Of a DNA stretch of 64,000 nucleotides, positions 5,867-30,418 are shown one piece after another. Below the pieces are notes generated by a model. That model was not told the DNA's origin. It was given only the letters and a program-made list of their open reading frames with translations, and made no database searches. Source of the DNA: Actinomyces timonensis DSM 23838 (lineage in GTDB: Bacteria; Actinomycetota; Actinomycetes; Actinomycetales; Actinomycetaceae); NCBI RefSeq assembly GCF_000295095.1, contig NZ_JH806632.1, positions 648,233-712,232 on the forward strand, written 5' to 3'. The position numbers and the translations under genes were made by a program. Every line of letters begins with the position of its first letter. The stretch's first letter is position 1.

Positions 5867-7333
5867 ATGAGCCAGTCCCCGTCCAGCGCCGGACCCGGCG
5901 GCCCGGCGCCCGAGAGCGACGACGACGTCGACTACCTGGCCACGCCGGCCGGCCAACTGCCCCTCGACGACTCCTACGCGCCCACGCAGGCCCTGGCCGC
6001 CGGCTCCCCGCCCGCTCAGTACTCCCAGGCCCCATCCCCTCAGGCCTCGTACGCGCAGGCCCCCTACGCCCCGGGCGGGTACGCCCCGGAAGCCACCATC
6101 CCCGGCGCCTATGGCCAGGTGGTGCCTCCCAAGTGGCGCCGGACCGGTCTCATCGTGGCGGCGGTTCTCGCCGTCGTGCTCGTGCTGGCGGGAGGCGGCA
6201 TCGCCGGCTACCTGCTGTGGGAGAAGGACGACACAGCCCCTGCGTCGGCCGCTGATCCGCTCGCCCCCGATCCCGCCTGGGCCGAGGGCGGTCACGAGCT
6301 GTGGCACGAGGAGTTCTCCGATGCGGACGATGTCATCCCCGCGGGCACCTCGTTCCTCACCGTGAAGAGGAAGGGCGCGGGCGCCACGATCACCAGCTAC
6401 CCCATCACGGACTCCGAGCCGGCACAGCAATGGCGGGCGGAGATCACGAAATACGCGCCCTACTCGGGCGGGGTGCGGGGCACGTACTTCCTGACCGGGG
6501 AGCAGCTCATCGATCTCACGACCGGCGAGGTGAGCGACACCCCCTGGGATTCCGCGATGGATGTCATCGGTGTTGTCGACAACGTCATGATCGTGTGCTC
6601 CTCTTCCCAATGCGATGGATACGCCGAGGACCTGACGCAGAAATGGACAGGAGCGAGATTCAACAAGAGCCTCGAATCCTCACTCCGCCCCGATCTGGTC
6701 CTCCCAGGATCGCCGTCGTTCATCACTCCTGATGGGCACACCATCATCAACGTCGAGACCGGTGAGACTCATAAGGTGAAGACCACCAGGCACCTCAACG
6801 CCATGGCTGACGGATGGGCGACCTATGACACGGCGAGAAAAAAGACGATCCTCTACTCCCCCACTGGGGAGGAGGAGGACGCCGTGAGCGCGGATAATCT
6901 GAACAGGATGGCGACCACGCAGCGGTTCGCCCCCACCACCGGTCAGATGCGGCCCTCCAAGGAGCAGATCAAGACCTGGGCGAACAACAGCGATATCTCA
7001 TGGGCCGTCGCCACCACTGACGACAAGCACAAGGGCTATGACTGCTTCACGGTCACGTTGACCGAGAGCGGCTCCACCATCGAGTTGGTCACCGATGGCG
7101 CATGCGTGACCGACGACGTCTACGCGCTCGCTACCAGCGGCTCGGCCGCTTTCGGGCTCGTCGGCTCACCGGACCGGGGGTTCCAGATCGCGGGCATGTG
7201 GAACACCGCCACCGGGCAGGAGATCTCGCTGCCGAGCAGCACGCGTCGCACCCCGTACTATTTCGTCTCCCCCGGGCGCCTCATCACGGTGAAGAGCAAT
7301 GAGGTCACTCTTTACGCGGCGGGCGCGAAATGA
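5867..7333 (+). CDS. Membrane-anchored protein with disordered Pro/Tyr-rich tail and extracytoplasmic domain
   Basis: Function unknown; 488 residues. Residues 1-90 are rich in Pro, Ala, Gln and Tyr with repeated YAQAP/YAPGG motifs and should be disordered and cytoplasmic. Residues about 93-117 form one membrane segment, flanked on the inside by KWRR. The remaining 370 residues would be outside. They contain repeated short strands and a CSSSQCDGY pair of cysteines, which could be a beta-propeller-like fold, but I cannot assign a family. The same plan (basic patch, helix, beta-rich exterior) recurs at 40594-42456, 42583-44037 and 61630-63513. Third-position GC falls in the second half (6550-7150). 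The stop overlaps the next start as ATGA, so the two genes are translationally coupled. Confidence 0.75.
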   Translation: MSQSPSSAGPGGPAPESDDDVDYLATPAGQLPLDDSYAPTQALAAGSPPAQYSQAPSPQASYAQAPYAPGGYAPEATIPGAYGQVVPPKWRRTGLIVAAVLAVVLVLAGGGIAGYLLWEKDDTAPASAADPLAPDPAWAEGGHELWHEEFSDADDVIPAGTSFLTVKRKGAGATITSYPITDSEPAQQWRAEITKYAPYSGGVRGTYFLTGEQLIDLTTGEVSDTPWDSAMDVIGVVDNVMIVCSSSQCDGYAEDLTQKWTGARFNKSLESSLRPDLVLPGSPSFITPDGHTIINVETGETHKVKTTRHLNAMADGWATYDTARKKTILYSPTGEEEDAVSADNLNRMATTQRFAPTTGQMRPSKEQIKTWANNSDISWAVATTDDKHKGYDCFTVTLTESGSTIELVTDGACVTDDVYALATSGSAAFGLVGSPDRGFQIAGMWNTATGQEISLPSSTRRTPYYFVSPGRLITVKSNEVTLYAAGAK

Positions 7334-23063: not shown

Positions 23064-25625
<2,562 letters not shown>

Positions 25626-25719
25626 CGCGGGTTATCTCCTCGGCACGTGCGGTCGGTTGGGGGCGCGGGGGCCGCGCGCCCGATGAGGGCGACGGGCCCA
25701 GCGCGGGCACGTGCTGCCA

Positions 25720-25725
25720 AGGCTA
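25720..25725 (-). promoter_or_regulatory. Probable -10 box of clpC
   Basis: On the minus strand TAGCCT lies about 95 nt before the clpC start. No good -35 is present at the expected spacing, as expected for an activator-dependent promoter. A perfect 8-bp palindrome, GGCATGGG/CCCATGCC with a 2-nt centre (25733-25750), lies just upstream. Confidence 0.4.
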
Positions 25726-25753
25726 ACGGCGCGGCATGGGGGCCCATGCCCCT

Positions 25754-25768
25754 GTTCGCGGTAGGCGT
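25754..25768 (-). promoter_or_regulatory. ClgR-like activator box upstream of clpC
   Basis: On the minus strand ACGCCTACCGCGAAC fits the core of the corynebacterial ClgR motif as I recall it (CGC, five bases, GCG followed by two A/T and C/G), with one mismatch. It lies about 30 nt upstream of the proposed clpC -10, where an activator would bind. Confidence 0.45.
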
Positions 25769-25835
25769 GAGTCAAGGTTGAGTCGATCCCGCTCAGGAAT
25801 GGCTGGGGATCGCGCAGAGCCTGCGCGGTTTTGGT

Positions 25836-25868
25836 CCAGTGCCGACCCACTGCCGACCCACTGCCGGT
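25836..25868. repeat. Three tandem 11-nt repeats
   Basis: CCAGTGCCGAC, CCACTGCCGAC and CCACTGCCGGT follow each other without gaps, and CCCACTGAG-like copies continue to about 25892. They lie just upstream of the leaderless promoter at 25926 and might be binding sites or a replication-slippage tract. Confidence 0.6.
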
Positions 25869-25925
25869 GCGGAGACCCACTGAGCCCCACTGAGGAGGTC
25901 CACCGTCCGCATGGCGGTCGCCGTC

Positions 25926-25955
25926 ATGACATCGCGCCAGGCCAGTGCGTAGGGT
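25926..25955 (+). promoter_or_regulatory. Promoter of the ABC-importer leader transcript
   Basis: ATGACA (25926-25931) is an acceptable -35 and TAGGGT (25950-25955) a good actinobacterial -10, 18 bases apart. Seven bases separate the -10 from an ATG at 25963, so the transcript should start at or beside that codon. Confidence 0.6.
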
Positions 25956-25962
25956 GCGCCGC

Positions 25963-26082
25963 ATGGAACACATCTCGCGCATCCTTGCCGGCCACGACGC
26001 CCCCGCGTCGTCGGCGATGATCGGCCGCGCGCGGATGATGCGCTGTTGTCGCTGTTCCAGCGCCCGCTGCCAGGCCTGTTGA
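25963..26082 (+). CDS. Leaderless cysteine-rich leader peptide (candidate cysteine attenuator)
   Basis: A 39-codon frame whose ATG begins seven bases after a -10 box and has no Shine-Dalgarno, so it should be translated from a leaderless mRNA. The peptide ends MMRCCRCSSARCQAC: five of its last twelve residues are Cys, encoded TGT or TGC, immediately before the TGA. Actinobacterial and mycobacterial poly-Cys leader frames of this form act as cysteine-responsive attenuators of downstream operons. Here the downstream operon is a NitT/TauT-type importer, a family that includes sulfonate and taurine uptake. Ribosome stalling at the Cys codons during cysteine shortage would favour expression; this is inference. 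The frame lies 325 nt upstream of the binding-protein start. Confidence 0.6.
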   Translation: MEHISRILAGHDAPASSAMIGRARMMRCCRCSSARCQAC

Positions 26083-26407
26083 TCCTTCCAGGCCCAGTCC
26101 GTCCAACCCTCGCCGCCCAGTGATGGGCCAGCGGCGATAGCTGGTTCGCGCGAGCGGAGCCACTGGCGGTTCCCGCGTCGAAAGCACCCCCAGATCCACT
26201 GGAGCACCCCAGAGCGCCCGAAGCACCCCGCTACGGGATGCTTCCAGCGTCTTGCAGATGCCCCAGACGGTCCCCGGATGCTCGGGGCGGCGCGGTAATG
26301 CCGAGCACGCTCCCGATGCGCAGGCCCCCGACCGCCTCCGCGGGCCCGCGCCAGCACCCTCATCAGGCCCGCGCCACCCCAACACCGTCATTCCACAGGA
26401 GACCACC
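26083..26407 (+). other. Structured leader RNA between the Cys-rich peptide and the ABC operon
   Basis: A 325-nt stretch without a gene. CAGCGG at about 26131 can pair with CCGCTG inside the Cys-codon run (26064-26069). AGCACCCC recurs at 26183, 26203 and 26222, i.e. every 19-20 nt. AGCACCCC (26222-26229) pairs imperfectly with GGGATGCT (26235-26242), and TGCTCGG (26279-26285) pairs perfectly with CCGAGCA (26301-26307). These could be alternative stems of an attenuator, but no stem is followed by a T-run, so a Rho- or translation-coupled mechanism is more likely than intrinsic termination. Confidence 0.4.
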
Positions 26408-27586
26408 ATGACCGCTTCCCCATCCGCCCCCTCCCCCGCTGAGGCTCCCTCAGCGGCCCCCACCCCCGCGGCCGAGGGGGCGCCCACCGCGCAGGCGCCC
26501 GCCGATGCCCCCGTCACCTCCGATAACGCGGCCGATATCCTCGCCGCCGATGACAGCGCCGACGAGCTCGCCGCCGTCGCCAAGCGCTCGACCACGCGCC
26601 GGGGCCTCCTCATCGGCGGCTCGGTGGCCGCGGCCGCCCTCGTGGCCGGGGGCGCCTGGCTCACACTGCGCCGCACGAACCAGGGCGTCGTCGGCGCCGC
26701 CGAGGAGATCCCCCTCGTCATCGGCGGGGACATCTGCGCCGCCCCGCTCTACGCCGCCTACCACCAGGGCTACTTCGATGACGCCGGGCTCAACGTCACC
26801 CTCGTGCGCACCCAGCAGACCGAGGACACGAAGGACGGCGTCGGCGCTGGCAAGTACATCGGCGCCCCGGGCATCTTCTTCTCCTGGCTCGAGCCGATCT
26901 ACAACGGCCTCAACGCCCGCCTGACAGCGGGCCTCCACGCCGGCTGCCTGCGGGTGGTGGCGCCCGAGGGCTCGTCCTACTCCTCGCTGGCCGACCTCAA
27001 GGGCGCCTCGATCGGCGTGCCCTCCCTGTCCTCCTCCGCCTTCGCCTACTTCTCCATCGGCCTGTCCGACGCCGGTATCAACCCCGATCCCTCGGCCGGG
27101 GACATCAGCTGGCGCACCATCGACTCCGACTCCCTCGGCCAGTCGCTGACCTCGGGGGATGTCGACGTCATCATGGGCTCCGACCCCGGCGTCCTCCTGC
27201 CGGTCCTGGCGGGCACCGGCCACGAGATCGCCAACAACGACGCCGAGCAGTTCTGCTGCTCCGTCGTCCTCAACGGCGACTTCGTCTCCAAGCAGCCCGA
27301 GAGGGCCAAGGCCCTCACCGAGGCATGGCTCAAGGGCTCGGCCTACGTGCCCGACCACATCGAGGAGATCGCCAAGCTCGAGGTGGACAACGAGTACGTG
27401 GCCACTGAGCAGGACGTCGTCCAGAAGGTGCTGCGCACCTACGGCTTCGACGCCTCCGCGACCCGCTTCCGGGCGGCCATCGAGCCGGGCATCGAGCGCT
27501 TCAAGAAGACCGGCTTCATCTCGGCCGATGTCGAGGCGGGCAAACTCGCCGACGCCGTCTACGCCGACCTGGGGATCAGCCAGTGA
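26408..27586 (+). CDS. ABC importer substrate-binding protein, NitT/TauT (SsuA-like) type
   Basis: A 392-residue exported binding protein. The ATG at 26408 has ACAGGAG six bases upstream. Residues 1-60 are an unusually long Ala/Pro/Ser-rich pre-region; then TTRRGLLIGGSVAAAALVAGGAW (in pieces, TTRRGLLIGG and the hydrophobic run) forms a signal anchor or possible Tat signal. The mature part has IPLVIGGDICAAPLYAAYHQ and GYFDDAGLNVTLVRTQ, the start of the NMT1/SsuA-like periplasmic-binding fold, and SSYSSLADLKGASIGVPSLS. It should capture the solute for the following permease and ATPase. A sulfur compound is suggested only by the Cys-rich leader; nitrate, taurine or a pyrimidine cannot be excluded. 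Confidence 0.85.
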   Translation: MTASPSAPSPAEAPSAAPTPAAEGAPTAQAPADAPVTSDNAADILAADDSADELAAVAKRSTTRRGLLIGGSVAAAALVAGGAWLTLRRTNQGVVGAAEEIPLVIGGDICAAPLYAAYHQGYFDDAGLNVTLVRTQQTEDTKDGVGAGKYIGAPGIFFSWLEPIYNGLNARLTAGLHAGCLRVVAPEGSSYSSLADLKGASIGVPSLSSSAFAYFSIGLSDAGINPDPSAGDISWRTIDSDSLGQSLTSGDVDVIMGSDPGVLLPVLAGTGHEIANNDAEQFCCSVVLNGDFVSKQPERAKALTEAWLKGSAYVPDHIEEIAKLEVDNEYVATEQDVVQKVLRTYGFDASATRFRAAIEPGIERFKKTGFISADVEAGKLADAVYADLGISQ

Positions 27587-28641
27587 GCGCCGCGGCACGC
27601 GAACCCCAGACCGAGCGCCACGACAGCCCCGCCAGCGCTGCCTCCCCCACCGGCGCTGCGGGGACGGCGGCGCTGGAGTCCCGCCGCCGGGCCCTCGTCC
27701 GCGGCGGATCCCTCGCCCTGGCGCTGTGGGCGGCGCACCTCGTGGTCGTCGTCGCCATGCCGGATACCGCGCTGCGCACGGCTAGCCACCAGCCCCTCCT
27801 CATCGTCGTCGGGGCCTGGATCGCCGTCCTGGCGGTCTGGCTCGCCTGGGCTCTGGCCCGCCCCGCCTCCTCCGCGGCGGGGGCCCTGGCCCACCGTCTG
27901 CCGTGGATCGCGCTGGGCGGCGCGTGGATGATCCTGTGGCAGGTGACGACGGCGAAACTGGACTGGCTCTCACCGCCCTACTTCACCTCCCCGGAGGTCC
28001 TCATCGACGCCTTCCGCGGGGACCTCGACCTCATCGCCTCCAGCCTGGGGGCCTCCGCCCTGCTGTTCCTTGCCGGCTACGCGCTGGGCTCCGTGACGGG
28101 CTTCATCACCGGGCTGCTCATGGGTTGGTCGCGGCGGGCCGACTACTGGCTCCACCCGCTCCTGCAGACCATCGGCCCGGTCCCGGCCGCCTCGCTGCTG
28201 CCGCTGGCGCTGCTCGTCGCGCCGTCGACCTTCGCCTCCGCCGTCCTCATCATCGCCTTCGGGGCCTGGTTCCCCATGGCGACGATGACCCGCGCCGGCG
28301 TCCACGCCGTACCCCGCAGCTATATCGACGCCGCCCGCACGCTCGGCGCGAGCGAGGCCTTCCTCGTGGGCCGCGTGGCGATCCCCGCCGCCCTGCCCGA
28401 CATGCTCACCGGCCTGTTCACGGGCCTGGGGACCTCCCTCGCCGCGCTCATGACGGCTGAGCTCGTCGGCGTCGACCGAGGCCTGGCCTGGTACATCAAC
28501 TGGGTCAAAGGGTGGGCGGACTACCCCCGCATGTACGTGGGGCTCGTCGTCCTCGTCGTCTTCTGCCGCGCCCTCATGATCCTGCTCTTCAAGCTCCGCT
28601 CCTCGCTGCTCGCCTGGCAGCACGACCTCGTCCGGTGGTGA
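27583..28641 (+). CDS. ABC importer permease, NitT/TauT (SsuC-like) type
   Basis: A 352-residue inner-membrane permease. The GTG start overlaps the preceding stop as GTGA. Two helices near residues 40-85 precede the usual six-helix BPD_transp_1 core. The cytoplasmic coupling (EAA) loop reads YIDAARTLGASEAFLVGRVA, followed by IPAALPDMLTGLFTG. It forms the channel with the adjacent ATPase. The two extra N-terminal helices make it longer than SsuC or TauC (about 260 residues). TGA is followed six bases later by the ATPase start, so all three genes are one operon. Confidence 0.9.
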   Translation: MSAAAREPQTERHDSPASAASPTGAAGTAALESRRRALVRGGSLALALWAAHLVVVVAMPDTALRTASHQPLLIVVGAWIAVLAVWLAWALARPASSAAGALAHRLPWIALGGAWMILWQVTTAKLDWLSPPYFTSPEVLIDAFRGDLDLIASSLGASALLFLAGYALGSVTGFITGLLMGWSRRADYWLHPLLQTIGPVPAASLLPLALLVAPSTFASAVLIIAFGAWFPMATMTRAGVHAVPRSYIDAARTLGASEAFLVGRVAIPAALPDMLTGLFTGLGTSLAALMTAELVGVDRGLAWYINWVKGWADYPRMYVGLVVLVVFCRALMILLFKLRSSLLAWQHDLVRW

Positions 28642-28647
28642 CCCACG

Positions 28648-29550
28648 ATGACCAAGAACGCGACCAGCGCCCCCGCGGCGCCCGACCCCGGGAGCACGAC
28701 GAGCACCGCTGAGCGCCCGCGCGGCGCCGAGGTGGCGCTCACCGGCGTCACCCACCGCTACCCGCTGCACCACGAGCTCGACCACGGCTGGGTCCCCTGG
28801 GCGATCCGCCAGGTCTCGCCGGCCGCCCGCGCCCGCTACGAGGCCGAGGCCGCCAAGGGCTCCTCCCTCCACGTGCTCGACGACGTGACGCTCACGATCC
28901 CGCCCGGGCAGTTCGTCGCCGTCGTCGGGCAGTCCGGCTGCGGGAAGTCCACGATCCTCCGGCTCCTCGCCGGGCTGGAGACGCCCAGCCAGGGCAGTGT
29001 CGTCGTCGACGGCGAGCGGATCACCCGCCCGGCACCAGAGCGCGCCATGGCCTTCCAGGATGCCACCCTCCTGCCGTGGAGGACCGTGAGGGACAACGTG
29101 GCGCTCGGGCCGCAGGCGCGAGGGCGCCTGGCCATCGACCAGCGGCGCATCGACGCCGCCCTGGAGATCGTGGGGCTGCGCGACTTCGCCGGCGCCTACC
29201 CCTCGACGCTCTCCGGCGGCATGGCGCAGCGCGCCGCGCTGGCCCGGGCGCTGGTCAACCGGCCCCGGCTCTTCCTCCTGGACGAGCCCTTCGGCAAGCT
29301 CGACGCCCTGACCCGCTTGGGCCTCCAGGACGAGTTCGCGCGCCTGTGGTCCTCCCAGGCCTTCACCGCGATCCTCGTGACGCACGACGTCGACGAGGCT
29401 CTGCGCCTGGCCGAGCGCGTCGTCGTCCTCTCGGAGCGGCCCGCCCACGTGGTGGCCGACCTCGAGGTGCCCGCCGCGCTGGCCGACGCCCCCGCCTCCA
29501 CCGAGTACCAGGACCTCAAAGCGCGCATCCTCGCTCTCCTGGGCCGGTGA
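28648..29550 (+). CDS. ABC importer ATP-binding protein, NitT/TauT (SsuB-like) type
   Basis: A 300-residue ATPase. Walker A is GQSGCGKSTILRLLAG, the Q-loop region is MAFQDATLLPWRTVRDNVAL, the signature is LSGGMAQRAALARAL, Walker B is LFLLDEPFGKLDALTR and the switch is LVTHDVDEALRLAER. All match the SsuB/TauB/NrtD group. An insert of about 35 residues (HHELDHGWVPWAIRQVSPAA and beyond) after the first strand is not typical of the family. It energises the preceding permease. Confidence 0.93.
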   Translation: MTKNATSAPAAPDPGSTTSTAERPRGAEVALTGVTHRYPLHHELDHGWVPWAIRQVSPAARARYEAEAAKGSSLHVLDDVTLTIPPGQFVAVVGQSGCGKSTILRLLAGLETPSQGSVVVDGERITRPAPERAMAFQDATLLPWRTVRDNVALGPQARGRLAIDQRRIDAALEIVGLRDFAGAYPSTLSGGMAQRAALARALVNRPRLFLLDEPFGKLDALTRLGLQDEFARLWSSQAFTAILVTHDVDEALRLAERVVVLSERPAHVVADLEVPAALADAPASTEYQDLKARILALLGR

Positions 29551-29592
29551 GCGGCGCCCGCGCGGGGGCGGGGCCGGGCTGACATGCCAGCC

Positions 29593-29621
29593 TTGGTTGT
29601 CTGATATCCGTCGGTTAGAGT
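29593..29621 (+). promoter_or_regulatory. Promoter of the broken CPBP protease gene
   Basis: TTGGTT (29593-29598) and TAGAGT (29616-29621) are separated by 17 bases, a good vegetative promoter. About 70 nt of leader follow up to the AGGAGGACA ribosome site, which begins 15 nt before the ATG at 29696. Confidence 0.6.
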
Positions 29622-29695
29622 CCCCTGCCCGGGCCGGGCCCGGCTCCGCGCGGCGACAGCACAGCGCGTGAGCAAACCAGGAGGACACCACCAAC

Positions 29696-30418
29696 ATGCC
29701 GACGACGGGACTCGCCAAGAGGATCACCCGCCTCAACCGCACTTGAACCAATGACCCCCGGATCGCCCTGACCATCCCCCTCTTCCTCGTGCTCGTGGCC
29801 CTCAGCCTCGCCCTGCCCTACGCCCTCGTGGAACTGCCCGGCATCTCCAGCCTGCCGGAGAAGGAGGGCGCCGCCGTCGGGATCCTCGCCTCCGAGGTCA
29901 CCTGCGCGCTGGGCGGATGGGGGCTCCTCCACCTGCTCGGCTACCGCTTCTCCGAGGCCTCGCCCCTGCGCTCCACGCGGTTCTGGCTGGTGGTGGTACT
30001 GGGTTGCCTCGCCGTGCCGCTGAGTGATGAGATCGTCGGGAGGATCGGGGACCTCGTCGAGGGCGCCGGCTACGCCGCGGGCAGCCAGGAGGAGCACGCC
30101 GACTCGATCCTCAGCAGCCCCCTGTGGCACACCTTCTTCTCGATCAACGTGCTCGGCCCGATCTTCGAGGAGATCACCTTCCGCGGGCTGCTCCTCAAGT
30201 ACGTCTTCACCCGGCACGCGGTGATCGGGGTCGTGGCCTCCACGCTCCTCTTCGCCTTCATCCACTCCCCCGCCACCGCCGTGGACTGGCTGTACTACGT
30301 CATCCCGGGCGCGATCTTCGCCGTCGCCTACTACGCGACCCGCCGCCTGGAGGCGTCGATCCTCATCCACGCCCTGACGAACCTGTACATCTACGCCAGC
30401 GTCCTCGTGGAGGGCTGA
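29696..30418 (+). pseudogene. CPBP-family intramembrane protease interrupted by an in-frame TGA
   Basis: An AGGAGGACA site leads to an ATG at 29696, and the frame reads MPTTGLAKRITRLNRT before a TGA at 29744-29746. Without any shift the same frame continues TNDPRIALTIPLFLVLVAL and runs as a normal CPBP (Abi/CAAX) protease to 30418, with EEITFRGLL, FAFIHSP and LIHALTN, the motifs of the glutamic intramembrane protease site. A single TGG-to-TGA change would explain it (LNRTW TNDP). The remnant could be translated from a GTG at 29789 but would lack the N-terminus of helix 1. Either a recent nonsense mutation, a sequencing error, or poor readthrough; I favour a pseudogene. Confidence 0.75.

Follow-up and report, generated by a model that had tools for sequence, protein, structure and literature searches.

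What is the role of a short, cysteine-rich open reading frame (ORF) ahead of an ABC importer operon in Actinomyces timonensis DSM 23838, and what does this importer carry? The following features of the window (the whole stretch of 64,000 nucleotides that was analyzed) bear on the question.

From 25625, opposite direction: Clp-type ATPase gene (read as clpC).
25926..25931, plus strand: -35-like hexamer ATGACA, seen in the sequence and below threshold in a sigma-70 consensus scan.
25950..25955, plus strand: -10-like hexamer TAGGGT, 18 bp after the -35-like hexamer and 7 nt before the ATG.
25963..26082, plus strand: leader-peptide ORF, putatively leaderless, 39 aa, with Cys codons at 26044, 26047, 26053, 26068 and 26077.
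26042..26054, plus strand: 5' arm of a predicted helix, which includes the first three of the five Cys codons; a shuffle as good came up once in 300.
26083..26407, plus strand: untranslated leader from the ORF to the substrate-binding protein (SBP) gene, without intrinsic terminator and without Rfam family.
26129..26141, plus strand: 3' arm, within the leader, of the helix predicted with 26042-26054.
26397..26401, plus strand: Shine-Dalgarno sequence AGGAG of the SBP gene, seen in the sequence.
26408..27586, plus strand: SBP, NMT1/SsuA-like, 392 aa (PF09084, E 2e-14; TIGR01728, 55.9 bits, cut-off 163.5).
27583..28641, plus strand: ABC permease (PF00528, E 3.9e-20), its start overlapping the SBP stop by 4 nt.
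28648..29550, plus strand: ABC ATPase (PF00005, E 5.1e-34), 6 nt after the permease.

Our analysis favors a leader that acts as a cysteine-responsive attenuator like the polycysteine leaders of mycobacteria, in front of an importer that most likely takes up a sulfur source; judged from sequence comparisons, we put the probability of this reading at roughly 0.84. The importer would very probably be switched on at cysteine shortage.

The leader peptide reads MEHISRILAGHDAPASSAMIGRARMMRCCRCSSARCQAC up to the stop codon (25963-26082), with five Cys within its last 12 codons. Upstream of the ATG at 25963 there is no purine-rich ribosome site, whereas the SBP gene at 26408 has its AGGAG. The original prediction had described exactly these hexamers, their 18 bp spacing and an ATG start, as well as a 39-codon frame with five Cys in the last 12 codons and no Shine-Dalgarno sequence, and the sequence agrees in every point. 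Since the sigma-70 consensus scan of 25700-26500 returned no promoter-like site, the case for a promoter is made by a TANNNT box conserved at fixed spacing from the ATG among orthologous loci. The hexamer ATGACA is shared with the two closest orthologs (L002 and L003), and TTGC was seen by eye at about the -35 place in 18 of the 25 other orthologs. Transcription would start at the A of the ATG. Neither a riboswitch nor a catalogued leader RNA was found by an Rfam search of 25400-29700 (no matches at E <= 1), Pfam and NCBIfam gave no match to the 39-aa peptide, and the intrinsic terminator with U-tract of a classical trp-type attenuator is absent from 25700-26500.

A search of 49 Actinomyces genomes with the SBP identified 28 with a close ortholog. 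Every one of these 28 loci carries an ATG frame of 31-39 codons with two to six Cys in the last 12 codons (two in L014, three in L002 and in L003), and the TANNNT box lies 7 nt before the ATG in 27 of them and 6 nt in the other (L024). The Cys cluster adjoining the stop, the mark of the mycobacterial type of polycysteine leader, is conserved in 28/28. Orthologs lacking the frame or its Cys codons, named beforehand as the finding that would speak against the prediction, do not occur among them. Two distant paralogs (L029 and L030) have no such leader frame. One might suspect a functionless chance frame before the operon, as short frames are common in GC-rich DNA and one background frame with two Cys codons did appear in 358 kb of sequence. 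However, none of 1120 dinucleotide-shuffled upstream regions of the 28 loci contained a frame of this kind, so that chance can be practically dismissed. One locus, L028, whose SBP is split over two matches, is included in the frame, shuffle and last-20-nt pairing counts and left out of the ribosome-site folding, the 45-nt-arm pairing, pN/pS and base composition.

The 358 kb consist of 19 stretches of other Actinomyces genomes plus the window and were scanned for frames 6-7 nt behind a TANNNT box with at least two Cys in the last 12 codons. This returned 21 matches, i.e. all 20 importer leaders and the one background frame; with at least three Cys the 19 matches were leaders only. The leader is thus present in all 19 stretches and in the window. 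Flanking genes differ among the 20 stretches (the clpC side, a DEAD-box helicase, UbiA/enoyl-CoA hydratase genes), while the linkage of leader and SBP gene is kept. ORF calls recovered the SBP in 20/20, the permease in 19/20 and the ATPase in 14/20 stretches; one stretch stops within the operon, and in some others the spot was taken by a called frame of the reverse strand. Conservation as a neighbor does not extend to the CPBP-type protease at 29789, whose cluster the ORF calls show in the window's stretch only. The leader belongs to the importer operon.

Beyond the 28 loci a leader-profile search of the genus gave two matches better than E 1e-4. One of them (L060) was rejected as chance, there being no leader-like frame at that place. 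At the other (L059; G013:C15, about 6910-6990) an importer-type leader with CAGTGT as its -10-like box is retained, followed, as seen by eye, by an apparently decayed importer with broken permease and ATPase frames, in a genome (G013) without an SBP ortholog.

A similar leader precedes the sulfate-assimilation operon of the genus, which comprises sulfite reductase (PF01077), CysH and CysD (PF01507) and, by reading, CysN. Its peptide has the form M...VMCC[QR]A before the stop, with two Cys codons (three in L150), and begins 7 nt behind a TANNNT box in all 14 fetched stretches and in two further loci. Of the 28 genomes that encode sulfite reductase, 26 were matched by a profile of these leaders at E < 1e-9, a few hundred bases before the sulfite reductase domain. 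The other two, G012 and G039, possess a GTG-started version that ends CSMCCQA and lies 6 nt behind TAGGTT. Profile matches and GTG versions together place the leader in 28/28 Actinomyces genomes with sulfite reductase. The 21 genomes without sulfite reductase, for each of which up to 150 candidates were scored, yielded no match below E 0.03. The presence of a similar leader at the sulfate operon ties this leader type to sulfur supply. It is furthermore selective within the sulfur genes, because it is absent from the cysK and metQ loci scanned: with at least two Cys required and 1500 nt covered on each side, so that one lying farther up a longer operon would escape, no leader turned up at 30 cysK loci, and the 30 metQ loci contained nothing but an unrelated frame of 10 codons (L125); six wider metQ stretches contained no leader and a single unrelated frame (L159). 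An attenuator with a counterpart at the sulfate operon makes it most likely that the importer brings in a sulfur source and serves together with that operon.

The putatively leaderless Cys leaders before sulfite reductase-cysH-cysD operons are those of loci L143-L156, L163, L164, L226 and L227. In genome G024 sulfite reductase and the Cys leader are present; a PAPS-reductase-family match (CysH/CysD) was not found there, which makes its sulfate route look incomplete.

Could the peptide itself be the product, a small Cys-rich protein that binds metal or thiols and is co-transcribed with the importer? We calculated pN/pS for one length class per group (4 of the 8 listed leaders of subclade B, 14 of C, 3 of A, and 6 and 5 sulfate leaders). 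Values of 0.36 in the four subclade-B leaders and of 0.29 in the group of five sulfate leaders indicate some constraint at the peptide level. The other three groups, however, gave 0.79-0.90, and number and spacing of the Cys vary, while the frame, the start spacing and the Cys codons adjoining the stop are what is kept. A function of the peptide as such is therefore very improbable.

For the attenuator reading the following course of events is proposed. RNA polymerase would begin with the A of the ATG, and translation of the leaderless frame would set in at once. With plentiful cysteinyl-tRNA the ribosome would pass the Cys codons and leave, whereupon the Cys-codon segment would pair with leader sequence further downstream and importer levels would stay low. 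With scarce cysteinyl-tRNA the ribosome would stall on the Cys codons, cover the segment and block this pairing, and the importer would be expressed. The transcription start, the stalling, the direction of control and the substrate class are what we infer here from the comparisons.

The leaderless polycysteine short ORFs of mycobacteria reportedly respond to cysteine, according to Canestrari and colleagues (2020), whose abstract is said to describe a ribosome site in M. smegmatis that is hidden without stalling and freed by stalling. The Actinomyces leaders resemble these ORFs in the start at the 5' end (a predicted feature here), in Cys codons adjoining the stop, in their position before sulfur genes and in a Cys region predicted to be able to pair downstream. 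In contrast, Actinomyces represents another family of Actinomycetota, the target is an importer restricted to the genus, complementary strands can be seen to be conserved, and hiding of the ribosome site lacks folding support. In M. smegmatis the description of polycysteine leaders made use of ribosome profiling (PMC4633059), and PMC4633059, PMC9031893 and PMC13236596 provide the mycobacterial precedent for cysteine-responsive leaders. Already in 2005 cys leader peptides were predicted in Mycobacterium, in Propionibacterium acnes and for cbs of Bifidobacterium longum, with Rho suggested (PMC1262725, available sections). They likewise have runs of Cys codons near the stop before cysteine genes and no conserved terminator hairpin. 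An A. naeslundii genome was part of the set analyzed there; the available sections of the paper name no Actinomyces cys leader, and no importer appears in what is available of its cysteine section. A literature search returned no published report of such leaders in Actinomyces among the matches listed.

A leader outside the mycobacteria is likely a relative in kind. In S. lividans the leaderless 29-aa metL leader, which ends ARCMCRRMCAF, precedes metNIQ without a typical Rho-independent terminator (PMC8079986, in extracts). It shares with the Actinomyces leader a leaderless start (putative in Actinomyces), the lack of such a terminator and the position ahead of an importer, in S. lividans one for methionine; the importer family differs. 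Unlike in S. lividans, the metQ loci scanned in Actinomyces have no leader. The authors stress, in the extracts of PMC8079986, the methionines and threonines of metL; three Cys codons close to its stop suggest that it senses cysteine.

The proposed switch needs Cys codons that can pair with the leader downstream, as the original prediction had claimed. For the window this was borne out by a predicted helix of 26042-26054 with 26129-26141 (13/13 pairs including G-U, pair probability 0.97-0.98), the score of which was matched by 1 of 300 shuffles. The nearest relatives L002 and L003 show no comparable helix (92/300 and 43/300 shuffles as good). When only the last 20 nt of the ORF are considered, the window (L001) scores poorly (191/300), because its paired segment sits further upstream; across L001-L012 at least 12/300 shuffles did as well in 11 of the 12 loci, the exception being L008 (3/300). 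In L013-L028, which form one subclade, the last-20-nt pairing was reached by at most 6/300 shuffles in all 16 loci. Here the last Cys codons together with CAGGC have as their predicted partner a CCTGRCAGC strand that follows at a distance of about 110-260 nt, and with a 45-nt arm allowed the pairing in L013-L027 was reached by 1-29 of 300 shuffles. A Cys tract able to pair downstream is accordingly found in the window and in L013-L028, and such pairing does not stand out from shuffles in most of L002-L012. After near-identical leaders had been dropped, 12 of the 16 subclade leaders entered the strand-pair statistics: 92.9% of cells were paired (0/500 shuffles), the covariation score was 0.160 (0/500), four cells were changed on both sides (9/500), and two pairs were changed on both sides, which is not informative (218/500). 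A second short helix is predicted in the same subclade, between the sequence just behind the stop and a strand behind the first partner. It was tested on nine distinct patterns for 15 leaders (the row of L022 placed by eye) and has moderate support: 83.3% of cells were paired (36/500), both sides had changed in three pairs (25/500), and the covariation score was reached by 11/500 shuffles.

In the sulfate leaders five complementary strands recur in 14/14, each able to pair with the next: GTC[AG]GGC within the ORF, GCGCCTGA(C), CGGCGC (GGGCGC in L154), GCGTCCGG, and finally CCGGACGC in ten leaders with a close variant in the other four. The strands are nearly invariant and thus yield little evidence from covariation. 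In folding of the free leaders strands 1:2 paired with a probability of at least 0.5 in 14/14; with the ORF end masked, 2:3 rose by about 0.05 or more in 8/14 and 4:5 clearly in 4/14. Judged from these folding models the strands look like an attenuator chain. Similar strands occur in one importer subclade in another order (1-4-2-5, by eye), which would give two crossing helices. A wider picture may tentatively be drawn, in which Actinomyces has a ribosome-directed cysteine regulon whose RNA switch of competing strands starts from the Cys codons and controls an importer that is restricted to the genus and takes up a reduced sulfur compound. We know of no NitT/TauT importer with such a cargo.

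The step downstream of stalling would be either Rho-dependent termination or control of SBP translation. In the first case the long C-rich leader would be the target of Rho, protected either by the alternative RNA fold or by a ribosome held up at the Cys codons. The lack of an intrinsic terminator in 25700-26500 is consistent with this, and so is the base composition of 27 leaders (C 0.419 against G 0.279), given balanced values upstream of the promoter (0.346/0.353). The C bias is not specific to the leader, however, since C is almost as abundant in the coding sequence of the SBP (0.384/0.282), and no Rho site was identified. A role of Rho had been proposed before, both for the B. longum cbs leader and for cys leaders in Mycobacterium and P. 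acnes (PMC1262725). All in all, termination by Rho is a real possibility, somewhat short of an even chance.

The second case supposes that the fold without a stalled ribosome hides the ribosome site of the SBP gene and that stalling frees it, which is the mechanism that Canestrari and colleagues reportedly put forward for M. smegmatis in 2020. The ortholog SBP genes have AGGAG-like sites (that of L027 was re-placed), and translation attenuation is the name given to the mycobacterial mechanism in the available part of PMC13236596. Folding lends it no support: with the ORF end masked, the mean cost of opening the site changed by 0.0 kcal/mol across 27 importer leaders, of which 5 opened more easily and 9 less easily, and by -0.03 kcal/mol across 14 sulfate leaders, with 6 opening more easily and 4 less easily. 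Moreover, in L013-L027 tens of nucleotides separate the ribosome site from the partner strand upstream of it. Control at the ribosome site is a possibility too, at slightly lower odds than termination by Rho.

Under the attenuator reading the importer probably carries a sulfur compound. Its SBP, permease and ATPase are similar to the SsuABC/TauABC families, all below the curated NCBIfam cut-offs, and the profile of the SBP matches a solved putative exported protein (3qsl, E 1.4e-8) and, weakly, an SsuA (3uif, E 0.0065). Among the 49 genomes SsuD exceeded its cut-off in none (four weak matches) and TauD was found in none; seven of the 28 importer genomes, including that of the window, have no sulfite reductase. 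On these grounds an alkanesulfonate/taurine (Ssu/Tau) importer is disfavored, and the cargo is probably not an alkanesulfonate. A reduced sulfur compound would fit better than a sulfonate. The predicted sulfur-source importer induced by cysteine shortage is supported by the frame conserved in 28/28 loci and by the sulfate-operon leader, while the sulfonate reading implied by its NitT/TauT label does not hold up well.

These findings would carry a mycobacterial regulatory principle into oral and animal-associated Actinomyces, with the taxon, the target and the clearer pairing partners being new. Conservation appears strong enough for a rule of annotation in this genus, and we suggest that a leaderless frame ending in Cys codons marks a sulfur-supply operon. 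A genus-restricted importer that sequence families cannot name thereby receives a testable substrate class, and it may be the main sulfur route in species such as that of the window, in whose genome no genes for sulfate or sulfite reduction were found.

Importer and sulfite reductase co-occur in the genus more often than expected (21/28 against 7/21 genomes, Fisher p 0.008, a value that ignores the kinship of genomes). CysK is above its cut-off in 47/49 genomes, that of the window included. The SBP family (26408-27586) appears confined to Actinomyces among the genomes searched, as far as the matches listed go: none of those listed from 35 other genera of a 213-genome family search reached E <= 1e-30 (up to eight candidates scored per genome), and none of those listed from 395 other genomes of the phylum reached E <= 1e-25 (up to four per genome). 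Within the SBP itself Cys110, Cys180 and Cys283-Cys284 are invariant in 17 aligned sequences.
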